Shown piece after piece: positions 23,939-30,871 of a stretch of DNA of 34,784 bases (position 1 is its first letter; every line of letters starts with the position of its first letter). The notes below the pieces were generated by a model. It saw only the letters and a list, made by a program, of their open reading frames with translations, ran no database searches and had not been told where the DNA came from. This stretch comes from an uncultured Clostridia bacterium (lineage in GTDB: Bacteria > Bacillota > Clostridia > Oscillospirales > Ruminococcaceae): assembly GCA_945935925.1 (NCBI GenBank), contig CAMERU010000005.1:1-34784 (forward strand), written 5' to 3'. Position numbers and translations under genes: made by a program.

Positions 23939-24118
23939 CGGAACGACAACGCTCTTCAGTACCGCCGCAGCGGCGGGCGCGTTCGGAACTCTGTCGTTAT
24001 TGAGATCTACGGGCAGGCACTGAACTCACAGAGCATCTGACACAGCCGCCCTTACGGTCACGTTGTTGAGAAGCGCATTGCCGATTTTCTCTGTTCAAGC
24101 CGCTTTTCAGAGGTGCCC
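23939..24118. repeat. Structured intergenic element ending in a dispersed repeat end
   Basis: This 180-bp gene-free stretch holds a GC-rich hairpin: CCGCC pairs with GGCGG near 23962-23976, inside a longer AACGACA/TGTCGTT stem (about 23942-23999). Its right end, 24080-24118, matches the end of the repeat at 28774-28812 (opposite strand) at 34 of 39 positions, including CTCTGTTCAAGCCG and AGAGGTG. No protein product is supported. Confidence 0.6.
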
Positions 24119-24145
24119 ACAAGCGAAAATGTCTCAAAAACGGCA

Positions 24146-24173
24146 TTGCAAAATTCGCTGATCATGCTATAAT
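24146..24173 (+). promoter_or_regulatory. Promoter of the Sel1-repeat gene
   Basis: TTGCAA (24146-24151) and an extended -10 TGCTATAAT (TATAAT at 24168-24173) are 16 bp apart. Transcription would start near 24180, about 20 bases before the ATG at 24199. Confidence 0.8.
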
Positions 24174-24198
24174 ATATCTCAATAAGGAGGAGTTGTGT

Positions 24199-24225
24199 AT
24201 GAATATATCGGAAGCAAAAAAATAG
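24199..24225 (+). other. Eight-codon reading frame ending in UAG, in frame with the Sel1 gene
   Basis: ATG 24199 has a strong AAGGAGG site 7-8 bases upstream and encodes MNISEAKK, then TAG at 24223-24225. The frame then stays open into the Sel1 protein (VDNYNRGEAHTEQEDLIYLE). It looks like the original gene start with a nonsense mutation, or a leader peptide. Confidence 0.75.
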
Positions 24226-24270
24226 GTCGATAACTATAACAGAGGGGAAGCTCATACCGAGCAGGAGGAT

Positions 24271-25077
24271 TTGATCTATCTCGAGGCGCTGCGGTATTTG
24301 TTTGACGAAACCCACGAACCGGCATACATCGCCGAAACGGGCTTTTATTACTATGAAAGCCGCCGCTTTGAGCTTGCGCTGAAATACTACGAAATGGCGG
24401 CGGAGCTTGGCGAAAAATCGGTGTACCCGGGGCTGGGATATATATGGTACTACGGAAGAACGGGTAAATGCGACTACGAAAAAGCATTCCGATGGTTTAC
24501 CCTTGCCGCCGAAAACGGCGACATTCAGTCGGAATACAAGCTTGCCGATATGTATAAAAACGGCTACGGCGTTGAGAAGGATTCCGAAAAATACAAGGAG
24601 ATCATCGAGAGCCTTTACCCGAAAGTCAGAAATGCGCGTTATCTGCATGAGCCGCTCCCCGAGATAGCGACAAGGCTCGCAAGGATACGCAAAAAGCAGG
24701 GCAGGATCAATGACGCCGTGTCGCTTTATTTGCAGGCAAGGGATTTTCTCGCGCAGAGAATAAAGTACAGCCCGTTTTTCGGAAACCTGAACATCATGAT
24801 GTGGCTTATCGACGACCTTTACAGTCTTATAGAATTTGATGAGGATAATATGGATCTGTTCGACCTGTATTGGCTGCTCAAAGCCCCGAACAAGGCGTCG
24901 TTTTATTACGAGGAAGAGCTCCAAACGGTTGAAAGCTCCGAATCGGAGGGAGATATCGCTGTTTGCTTTAACGGAAAGTGGTTCAGAAACCGCGGGGAAT
25001 TTTTTGAAAAGGCAGAGATCGGCGGAATGCTGCGGACCACGATACAAAATGAACTTTACGGGTTCAGGGTGGAGTGA
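24271..25077 (+). CDS. Sel1-like (TPR-type) repeat protein, start interrupted by UAG
   Basis: The body of 268 residues is helical. It has Sel1/TPR-type repeats in the first half: SRRFELALKYYEMAAELGEK, a GYIWYYGRTG unit with YEKAFRWFTLAAENGD, and YKLADMYKNGYGVEKDSEKY. Such repeats bind partner proteins; no enzyme domain is visible. There is no signal peptide. The likely ancestral start at 24199 is separated from the body by an in-frame TAG at 24223. If that stop is obeyed, the best restart is TTG 24271, only 2 bases after GGAGG, so yield is probably low. The rest of the frame is undamaged, which suggests a recent mutation or some continued use. It has no operon partner. Confidence 0.7.
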   Translation: MIYLEALRYLFDETHEPAYIAETGFYYYESRRFELALKYYEMAAELGEKSVYPGLGYIWYYGRTGKCDYEKAFRWFTLAAENGDIQSEYKLADMYKNGYGVEKDSEKYKEIIESLYPKVRNARYLHEPLPEIATRLARIRKKQGRINDAVSLYLQARDFLAQRIKYSPFFGNLNIMMWLIDDLYSLIEFDEDNMDLFDLYWLLKAPNKASFYYEEELQTVESSESEGDIAVCFNGKWFRNRGEFFEKAEIGGMLRTTIQNELYGFRVE

Positions 25078-25115
25078 AAATATGGAGATCGTCAGATTGT
25101 TCTTGTCAAGCAAAA

Positions 25116-25606
25116 TTGTAACACTTTCCCACAAAATCAATCCATCCGTTTCTGCCAGGGTGTAAGACCGTTATTGAACGAATGAGGTCTGACGGAATTA
25201 TACCATAGCAGTACGTGATCATCACCGTCTGAGAAGCCATATGAGTCCCATCGACTCTTTGTTTTCGTCGAGAAATCGATCTCCTTCGTGAAGAATGCCG
25301 CTGCTTTTTTTAGGAATTCGTTTTACTTCCTCATTTCTTCAAGCTCCTTTCGGAGTTTGAGGTCTTCCTTCATGAGGTCGTATTCTTCCTTTGCAGCGGG
25401 ATCCTTTGAGCATTCTTCGCGATACATTTTCAGCCAGTACCCGATCCCGTTCTCGGAAACATGGTACTCCTCCGACAGACTTCTTATCGTCCGTCCTTAT
25501 TCCAAGTGCATCCGCACTATCCTCTTCTTGAATTCTTCGTCGTAACTTGCCATTGCTTTCCCATCCTTTGTTTATTATATCACTTTTTTTGGGGTGGGTG
25601 TTACAA
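25116..25606 (-). mobile_element. Internally deleted IS3-family insertion sequence relic
   Basis: A 491-bp stretch is bounded by perfect 9-bp inverted ends, TTGTAACAC (25116-25124) and GTGTTACAA (25598-25606), followed inwards by similar CCCAC/CCCC and A-rich bases. It contains a fused remnant of orfA and the very end of orfB on the minus strand. IS3 elements end in TG...CA, as here if the outer T/A is left out. No target-site duplication is visible. It cannot move by itself. Confidence 0.8.
25137..25553 (-). pseudogene. IS3-family transposase OrfA/OrfB remnant
   Basis: One frame of 139 codons runs from ATG 25553 (MASYDEEFKKRIVRMHLE) to TGA 25137. It has the helix-turn-helix of IS3 OrfA (IRSLSEEYHVSENGIGYWL) and the coiled coil leading to ENEFLKKAAAFF. 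Two in-frame TAA codons stand where Gln (25497-25499) and Glu (25323-25325) are expected, each one base change away. After FFTKEIDFSTKTKSRW the sequence soon joins WYNSVRPHSFNNGLTPWQKR, the last residues of OrfB. The whole DDE catalytic core has therefore been deleted while the frame was kept. The gene is clearly dead. Confidence 0.85.
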
Positions 25607-29181: not shown

Positions 29182-29210
29182 TTGAAAATTCCGCCGTTTC
29201 ATGCTATAAT
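29182..29210 (+). promoter_or_regulatory. Promoter of the GSF-repeat operon
   Basis: TTGAAA (29182-29187) and an extended -10 TGCTATAAT (TATAAT at 29205-29210) are 17 bp apart. This is a strong constitutive-looking promoter with a leader of about 20 nt. Confidence 0.88.
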
Positions 29211-29236: not shown

Positions 29237-30004
29237 ATGGAATGTGCGCTTTGGCTTAACAGGCGTAAAATATACCATGCCGATGAGATATCCGATAACC
29301 TTGATATCGCGTCGCTGAGGGGTTATTTTCTCGGGGGAAGCCTTGAAGAATGGCTCCGCGACAACGGCGGCGAAATGTACGCCGATCGCCTCGCAGAGCT
29401 GGACGCAGCCGACCCCGACCTTAATGGGAAGCTGGCACGCATATTCCGCAAAAACAGCCCGCCCGTGCCCGCCGTATCCCTCGGCGGCGCACAGCAGCCT
29501 GTCCCCGCACGCGGAGCGGTATTCGGGCTTTCGCAGAGGCAGAGCGCTTACGGCGGCTCGTTCGGCTCTTTCGGCTCGTTTGGGTCATTCCGAGGGTCGT
29601 TCCGCGGTGGTTCGTTCCGTCATGGAAGCTTTATTAACGAATGGGAGTGGGAATACGTCCTCGGAAGCTTCAAAAGAGGTTCGTTCCGCGCGGGGTCATT
29701 CGGCGGCTCTTTCGGCTCGCATGAGTGGGAATGGGAATATGCCCTCGGAAGCTTCGGAAAGGGCTCGTTCCGCGCGGGGTCATTCCGCTCGGGATCATTC
29801 ACAGGCGGCTCGTTCAGGCTCGGGTCATTCAGAGCGCCGATCTCCGTATATGGCTCGGGCAGACCGTTCGGGCTGTCCCCGAAAAACACGAACGGAAGCT
29901 TCCCCGCATTTGTCCTGTCCTCCGACGAATACGACAGGATAATGCTCGAAACGCTGCGAAAGTGCCCGCTGGATCGCTTCGGCTACGGTATCCATATCAT
30001 ATAA
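29237..30004 (+). CDS. GSF-repeat protein with short helical N-terminal domain
   Basis: I do not recognise this 255-residue protein. Residues 1-72 look like a small globular helical domain (LRGYFLGGSLEEWLRDNGGE, then ADRLAELDAADPDLNGKLAR). A Pro/Ala/Gly linker follows. Residues 107-199 are built from 17 Gly-Ser-Phe triplets spaced by 0-3 mostly Arg/Gly residues, with two longer units that each begin EWEWEY (135-140 and 163-168) and share LGSF and GSFRAGSF. One more GSF lies at 220-222. The tail (SSDEYDRIMLETLRKCPLDR) is ordinary. No signal peptide or membrane helix is present. ATG 29237 is preferred over the adjacent GTG because of spacing from GGGGGTG. The next gene starts one base after the stop, so the two are coupled. 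The repeats might be modified at serine, or form a cohesive low-complexity domain; both ideas are inference. Confidence 0.8.
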   Translation: MECALWLNRRKIYHADEISDNLDIASLRGYFLGGSLEEWLRDNGGEMYADRLAELDAADPDLNGKLARIFRKNSPPVPAVSLGGAQQPVPARGAVFGLSQRQSAYGGSFGSFGSFGSFRGSFRGGSFRHGSFINEWEWEYVLGSFKRGSFRAGSFGGSFGSHEWEWEYALGSFGKGSFRAGSFRSGSFTGGSFRLGSFRAPISVYGSGRPFGLSPKNTNGSFPAFVLSSDEYDRIMLETLRKCPLDRFGYGIHII

Positions 30005-30005
30005 C

Positions 30006-30824
30006 ATGAATGCTATCCATATCGTATCAACTGCGCCGTTTTTCGCAAAGGGCGGCAAGACTTACCGCATGGAGGATTTCGACCTCTGGTGCACCGCGCT
30101 GTCAGCCCTGTGCTGGAGAAGATACAACGGCAGAATAACGCTCTGCGCCGACAGCCGTGCCGCACGGTATTTCACCGAGGCGGGACTTGCGCCGCTCTGG
30201 GACGGCATAAACGTCTGCATCCCCGACGACCTCGATGGGATAGACCCCGAGATGTTCTGGGCTGGCGGAAAGCTGCTTGCGCTGAAAGAAACGCCTGCGC
30301 CCGTTGTAATGCTTGACACCGACTTTATCGTCTGGAAACCGCTCCCGTTCGGGCAGGAAATAATCGCCGCCCACTGCGAGGAGCTCTACCCCGACATATA
30401 CCCGCCGCTCGGGTACTTCCGAACAAAAAACCATATCATTCCCGCGTTCAGCGAAAGCGTTCTCCCACTGAACACGGCTTTTCTCTATATACCCGACGAG
30501 GACTTCAAAGGCTTCTACACCTCGCAGGCGATAGCGTTCATGAAGTCCGCCGAAAAAAGCGGCGACCGCCTGTGCAACATGGTTTTCGCCGAGCAGAGAA
30601 TGGCGGCGATGTGCGCCGACTACACGGGCACCCCCGTAAAGACGCTCCTCGACAAGGATCACCTCTTTTTCCCGCAGGACTGCTTCACCCACCTCTGGGG
30701 CGCAAAGCAGGCAATGCGCGACGACCCCGTGCTCCGCGCCGACCTTGTTGGTAAATTCAGAGCGCGGCTGATGTCCGACTTTCCCGAATATTCTTTCATC
30801 GCCGATATTATCTGCGCGCTGTGA
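30006..30824 (+). CDS. Glycosyltransferase-like protein (GT-A fold, DUF6734-like)
   Basis: This 272-residue protein begins IHIVSTAPFFAKG and carries a DxD-type motif in PVVMLDTDFIVWKPL (Asp104, Asp106), preceded by FWAGGKLLAL. This is the usual strand and metal site of GT-A nucleotide-sugar transferases. Late segments PQDCFTHLWGAKQ and a C-terminal helix also fit the DUF6734-type family. Catalysis has not been shown for this group as far as I know. There is no signal peptide, so it would act in the cytoplasm. It starts one base after the GSF-repeat stop (TAA C ATG) and lacks a clear ribosome-binding site of its own. Its translation therefore depends on the GSF gene, and the repeat serines are a candidate acceptor. 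Confidence 0.75.
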   Translation: MNAIHIVSTAPFFAKGGKTYRMEDFDLWCTALSALCWRRYNGRITLCADSRAARYFTEAGLAPLWDGINVCIPDDLDGIDPEMFWAGGKLLALKETPAPVVMLDTDFIVWKPLPFGQEIIAAHCEELYPDIYPPLGYFRTKNHIIPAFSESVLPLNTAFLYIPDEDFKGFYTSQAIAFMKSAEKSGDRLCNMVFAEQRMAAMCADYTGTPVKTLLDKDHLFFPQDCFTHLWGAKQAMRDDPVLRADLVGKFRARLMSDFPEYSFIADIICAL

Positions 30825-30842: not shown

Positions 30843-30871
30843 TTTCCGTATAATACGGGAAAAGGTTTTTT
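30843..30871 (+). other. Palindrome with TATAAT followed by T-run
   Basis: CCGTAT-A-ATACGG (30846-30858) flanked by TTT/GAAA forms a small hairpin, and six T follow at about 30866-30871. It could be a weak terminator of the GSF operon or the -10 region of the next gene (TATAAT at 30849-30854, no clear -35). The sequence does not decide. Confidence 0.4.

Follow-up and report, generated by a model that had tools for sequence, protein, structure and literature searches.

Two adjacent forward-strand genes were analysed in the window, by which we mean the whole 34,784-nucleotide stretch of DNA. Gene 1 (29237..30004; ATG at 29237, TAA stop at 30002-30004) encodes a serine-array protein of 255 aa with a C-terminal tag. 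Gene 2 (30006..30824) encodes a protein of 272 aa, predicted to be a GT-A, GT8-like glycosyltransferase and marginally matching DUF6734. A single base separates the gene 1 stop from the gene 2 ATG at 30006, and no Shine-Dalgarno-like site precedes this ATG, as an earlier note on this DNA had described. A near-consensus sigma-A-type promoter (29182..29210, forward strand; TTGAAA-17-TATAAT with a TG before the -10, 11 of 12 matches) ends 26 bases before the gene 1 start, and the same promoter is present in several relatives. Downstream of gene 2 lies an intrinsic terminator (30843..30871, forward strand), with its stem at 30843-30861 followed by a T run. With a promoter before and a terminator after it, the pair appears to form a complete transcription unit of its own, separate from the downstream ABC-transporter ATPase and Sir2 genes. 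The window neighbours scanned were pyruvate kinase, DAG kinase, ABC ATPase, Sir2 and zinc-ribbon proteins. A 360-residue ORF on the reverse strand (24058-25140) had no Pfam match.

The gene 1 product has three parts. Residues 1-72 (29237..29452) form an N-terminal domain; in the predicted model, residues 1-70 are folded (pLDDT about 96) and the repeats are disordered (about 40). The repeat array spans residues 107-198 (29555..29830). It contains 17 GSF triplets, and one more is found at residue 220. The total is thus 18, one above the count in the earlier note; when the repeat region was shuffled 5000 times, GSF occurred 0.8 times on average and at most 5 times. The two EWEWEY-headed units also reported there were confirmed, with the elements at residues 135-140 (29639..29656) and 163-168 (29723..29740). 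Gly, Ser and Phe codons differ among the GSF units (Ser: TCG 7, TCA 5, AGC 4, TCT 2), which marks GSF as a protein-level repeat rather than recent DNA slippage, and a microsatellite origin was rejected on this ground. The protein ends in FGYGIHII, with the tag GYGIHII at residues 249-255 (29981..30001) and its last residue at the protein end. This tag, the most conserved feature of the system, was missing from the earlier note, as were the promoter (29182-29210) and the terminator (30843-30861). A Pfam scan of the repeat protein gave no match, and its N-terminal domain had neither a Pfam family nor a Foldseek match. No hydrophobic segment of membrane strength (19-residue Kyte-Doolittle mean ≥1.6) was detected in 59 homologues, so the repeat protein should be soluble and cytoplasmic.

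At least six bacterial families, most of them gut Clostridia, have the two-gene unit. Searches of whole genomes, and of named genomes of Oscillospiraceae and other Clostridia, yielded a first set of 111 distinct enzyme loci. At 109 of these, a protein encoded upstream carries a C-terminal GYG-type tag, which almost always coincides with the end of the chain. Another 17 enzyme loci, from three further families, came from a search across the class. Of these 17, 12 had the tagged gene adjacent, and the other five, all from one genus, had a tagged partner in trans: in each of the five genomes, a search with the tag alone revealed a serine-rich tagged protein that is encoded away from the enzyme locus and next to a U32 peptidase gene. 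Altogether, a partner with a C-terminal GYG-type tag accompanied 126 of the 128 distinct enzyme loci. The two exceptions were G266, where the enzyme stands alone, and G010, with an internal GGYGLSLI about 1 kb upstream. The neighbour gene is therefore conserved, the tagged repeat protein being kept with the enzyme in nearly every genome. Homologues beside unrelated genes, which the earlier note had named as evidence against its reading, occurred in one genus only; there the pair is split, with both genes still in the genome. Junctions were most often overlaps, of 4 bases (25 loci) or 1 base (14 loci), followed by the one-base gap seen in the window (9 loci). Besides acceptor and enzyme, no third gene within about 6 kb was common to near and far lineages. 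Several close relatives of the window's genome have the acceptor and enzyme genes 0.6-2.1 kb apart.

Some local arrangements were observed in addition. In close relatives, genes for a family of small membrane proteins, often as tandem copies, separate acceptor and transferase (L022 4573-5316 and similar, 27 loci); the window has none of them. In one genus (L201, L203, L205, L206, L207, L212-L216), the transferase follows MltG and O-methyltransferase genes, and the acceptor precedes a U32 peptidase gene. The two settings might derive from a single operon that was split.

The consensus of the tag is GYG[IL]-x-[LIN]-[IV]. Its GYG positions have an entropy of about 0.1 bit, and the preceding positions of 2-4 bits. 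The tag was kept across GSF, TSY, ASF or plain (GS)n repeats, where the N-terminal domain was replaced, and where other genes separate the pair, including those relatives with 0.6-2.1 kb between the genes. Its persistence when the genes are not adjacent shows selection at the protein level, and not a by-product of gene 2 translation initiation. An RNA- or ribosome-binding constraint on the C-terminus was likewise rejected, since the tag stays with distant genes and its first four residues are encoded by 64 different DNA sequences. The tag tyrosine is present in 125 of 126 tags and replaced by Phe in one (G232, GGFGLELI). In G944, from another class of the same phylum, the pair is present and three residues extend beyond the tag. 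Among 30 enzyme-negative genomes, chance matches of the pattern included no true tag.

The rest of the acceptor is more variable. Most members of the window's family have GSF/GSY arrays. In f13 the array is TSY together with GSGS, in f171 it is ASF/SSF/TSY, and in f206 it is almost pure (GS)n; termite relatives also have (GS)n arrays almost devoid of aromatics, with tag and enzyme retained. In the arrays, [GT]S[FYW] was 9 to 15 times commoner than in shuffles, and T[FYW] was rarer (down to 0.43 and 0.20). EWEWEY-like elements (EWEWE/EYEYE) were common in f1 and f171 only. Given the (GS)n arrays of f206, what the families have in common is a serine with a small neighbouring residue, aromatics being optional. 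Two acceptors, in G1240 and G944, have the tag and almost no array. Modules of at least five kinds make up the N-terminal part, and they track the clades of the enzyme tree; the sorting rules left some rows unassigned. The earlier note had singled out the N-terminal 72 residues and the repeat as search handles; the former proved replaceable, and the shared part is the C-terminal tag. The exchangeability of the N-terminal domains suggests that they set the target of the protein.

The gene 2 product scored 28.9 bits against DUF6734 (Pfam PF20508; cut-off 27), a marginal match but above the threshold and the only one in the Pfam scan, which gave no hit to the GT8 sequence family Glyco_transf_8. 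Searching solved structures with the enzyme sequence returned nothing meaningful. Its AlphaFold2 model, built from a 65-sequence alignment, reached a pLDDT of 95.3. In a Foldseek search against the PDB, LgtC, glycogenin and GlyE were among the nearest folds, with a probability of 1.0 to LgtC and glycogenin. TM-scores to known glycosyltransferases were moderate, about 0.4, and hence the fold matches reveal neither the donor nor the acceptor. The D-x-D motif noticed earlier is D104-T-D106 (30315..30323); both aspartates are invariant in the 65-sequence alignment, as is H229 (30690..30692), which we take to be the metal-site histidine of GT8 enzymes. Such invariance would be expected if the GT8-like enzyme depends on a metal. 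The predicted fold and the metal-site residues thus agree with the glycosyltransferase-like character first proposed for the neighbour, and its assignment as a GT-A, GT8-like glycosyltransferase is a confident prediction.

We consider the pair to be, with somewhat better than even probability, a two-gene module for protein glycosylation inside the cell, in which a tag-recognising GT8-like enzyme glycosylates array serines of a soluble acceptor. This reading draws on what computation established: the genes are paired, the acceptor is tagged, its array is predicted to be disordered and follows a serine pattern, and the enzyme is predicted to have a glycosyltransferase fold. Gene 1 would supply the soluble acceptor, in which an exchangeable folded domain at the N-terminus is followed by a disordered serine array and the tag. 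The gene 2 enzyme would recognise and dock on this tag; here, the basis is the co-inheritance of tag and enzyme. It would then move a sugar from a nucleotide sugar onto the array serines in the cytoplasm. That these serines are the acceptors had been put forward in the earlier note, and its proposal is supported in so far as the arrays are strictly serine-based and predicted to be disordered. Where the genes touch, translational coupling would yield matched amounts of both products. The decorated protein would most likely be a soluble, glycan-coated scaffold whose N-terminal domain chooses the target. The main tension with glycosylation of the array is that the G1240 and G944 acceptors hardly have one.

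The same two acceptors would be easier to accommodate if the enzyme acted on another substrate and the tagged protein were an adaptor or regulator delivering it through the N-terminal domain. The tag is also better conserved than the array, and the N-terminal domains vary as adaptors would. However, this would leave unexplained why serine arrays precede the tag in nearly all lineages despite their differing N-terminal domains, and we regard it as improbable. The main rival is a glycogenin-like reaction on the tag tyrosine, through which the protein would prime or anchor a polysaccharide. Glycogenin is among the top Foldseek matches of the enzyme, and the tyrosine is nearly invariant (125 of 126 tags). 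On the other hand, the one natural tag with Phe (G232), albeit a single case, lacks the residue to be modified, and the serine arrays would have no explanation. Glycogen synthase (GlgA) was equally frequent in genomes with and without the pair and speaks neither for nor against a glycogen link. Overall, a glycogenin-like primer appears unlikely.

The arrays also recall low-complexity cohesive proteins of the FG-nucleoporin or FUS type, which would form condensates with a cohesion tuned by the enzyme through glycosylation. GSF/GSY arrays, the EWEWEY elements of the window's family and the predicted disorder fit such a protein, but f206 and the termite relatives keep tag and enzyme with (GS)n arrays almost without aromatics. 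Aromatic-based cohesion can therefore not be the general function, and the FG-like domain offered as an option in the earlier note fails as such on the (GS)n family; we judge condensate formation as improbable as an adaptor role. The acceptor could also be a glycoprotein of the spore coat or crust, produced together with a transferase of its own in the cytoplasm of the mother cell, and its lack of a signal peptide would agree with this. Of 40 genomes checked, 39 encode SpoIVA, whether or not they have the pair, and its presence is thus uninformative. Upstream of 94 acceptor genes, where the relatives are not independent, sigma-A-like sites were enriched (45 of 94 above the shuffle threshold, versus 2.8% of shuffles), whereas SigE, SigK and SigG sites were not. 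We therefore disfavour a spore-coat role and rate it as very improbable.

Several known systems resemble parts of the proposed glycosylation module. According to two papers, serine-rich repeat glycoproteins carry a serine-repeat acceptor that is glycosylated in the cytoplasm by GtfA/GtfB and others such as GlyE, encoded alongside (PMC6973325, PMC5207161). The window's acceptor is similar in having a serine-repeat region, with repeats and serine enrichment, and GlyE is among the Foldseek matches of its enzyme. By the published account, those adhesins are exported and anchored, whereas the proteins studied here have no signal peptide or wall anchor and end in the GYG tag. Neither the window neighbours scanned nor the genes common to near and far lineages within about 6 kb include accessory Sec (SecA2/SecY2) or GtfA/GtfB genes, there is one transferase instead of several, and the array is far shorter, with a C-terminal tag and exchangeable N-terminal domains. 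A serine-rich-repeat adhesin system was rejected, given an acceptor without export or anchor features and the absence of accessory Sec genes. Glycogenin (GT8) shares the similar predicted fold, the D-x-D metal site and a conserved tyrosine, here in the tag. It differs in that acceptor and enzyme are separate proteins here, the tag tyrosine can be Phe, serine arrays are present and sequence identity is very low, about 12%.

In glycocin-type RiPP systems, a dedicated transferase lies beside a genetically encoded substrate. Unlike in these, no leader, protease or exporter gene is common across the lineages of the pair, and the substrate would be a repeat protein with a conserved C-terminus. O-GlcNAc-modified FG nucleoporins and FUS-like proteins have disordered GSF/GSY-like arrays. 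They share with our proposal the disordered arrays and serine glycosylation inside the cell; the present system differs in being bacterial, with one dedicated enzyme per acceptor and with (GS)n arrays sufficing in some families.

Most known cases of protein O-glycosylation in bacteria concern exported proteins, and the pair looks like an undescribed intracellular protein-glycosylation system. A literature search, with most subscription journals outside its coverage, found no paper for DUF6734 or the tag, and one repeat string matched two unrelated plant papers. Searches of titles and abstracts for comparable systems, whether RiPPs or cytoplasmic glycoproteins, yielded nothing of such form. A dedicated transferase with an encoded acceptor is already a known logic; the novelty, if shown, would be intracellular glycosylation through a portable C-terminal tag. 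More tentatively, and with less than even confidence, we propose a new class of bacterial intracellular glycoprotein system, in which a portable GYG[IL]xLI tag would recruit one transferase to disordered serine arrays and exchangeable N-terminal domains would aim the glycan coat, an analogue of nucleocytoplasmic O-glycosylation of low-complexity proteins. If true, a soluble acceptor, a short tag and a single transferase would make a compact glycosylation module, the tag could possibly be used as a transferable glycosylation tag, and a part of DUF6734 would gain its first function.

Other DUF6734 enzymes were found in different settings. A canonical member (G879, 22% identical) has no tag in its locus, which is of the eCIS/tail type: its gene (L166, G879:C16:28000-35000) lies between an eCIS-core (DUF4157-type) gene and baseplate-like genes. 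This gene order hints at a place for other DUF6734 enzymes in contractile injection or tail loci. Viral contigs (L173-L188) encode DUF6734-like glycosyltransferases with 23-30% identity, some among tail or structural genes, and the GYG tag was absent from the nine viral-contig loci read. A phage or plasmid origin of the pair was rejected, as annotated phages and plasmids gave no match and the viral-contig relatives are this distant and without the tag in the loci read.

The window-type N-terminal domain was also found apart from the pair. In G160 (L172 3002-4681, 5750-7669), it fronts Sel1-repeat and SH3 proteins beside an AAA ATPase, with no enzyme gene adjoining. It is thus a more general module, without a Pfam entry, that also occurs on Sel1 and SH3 proteins.
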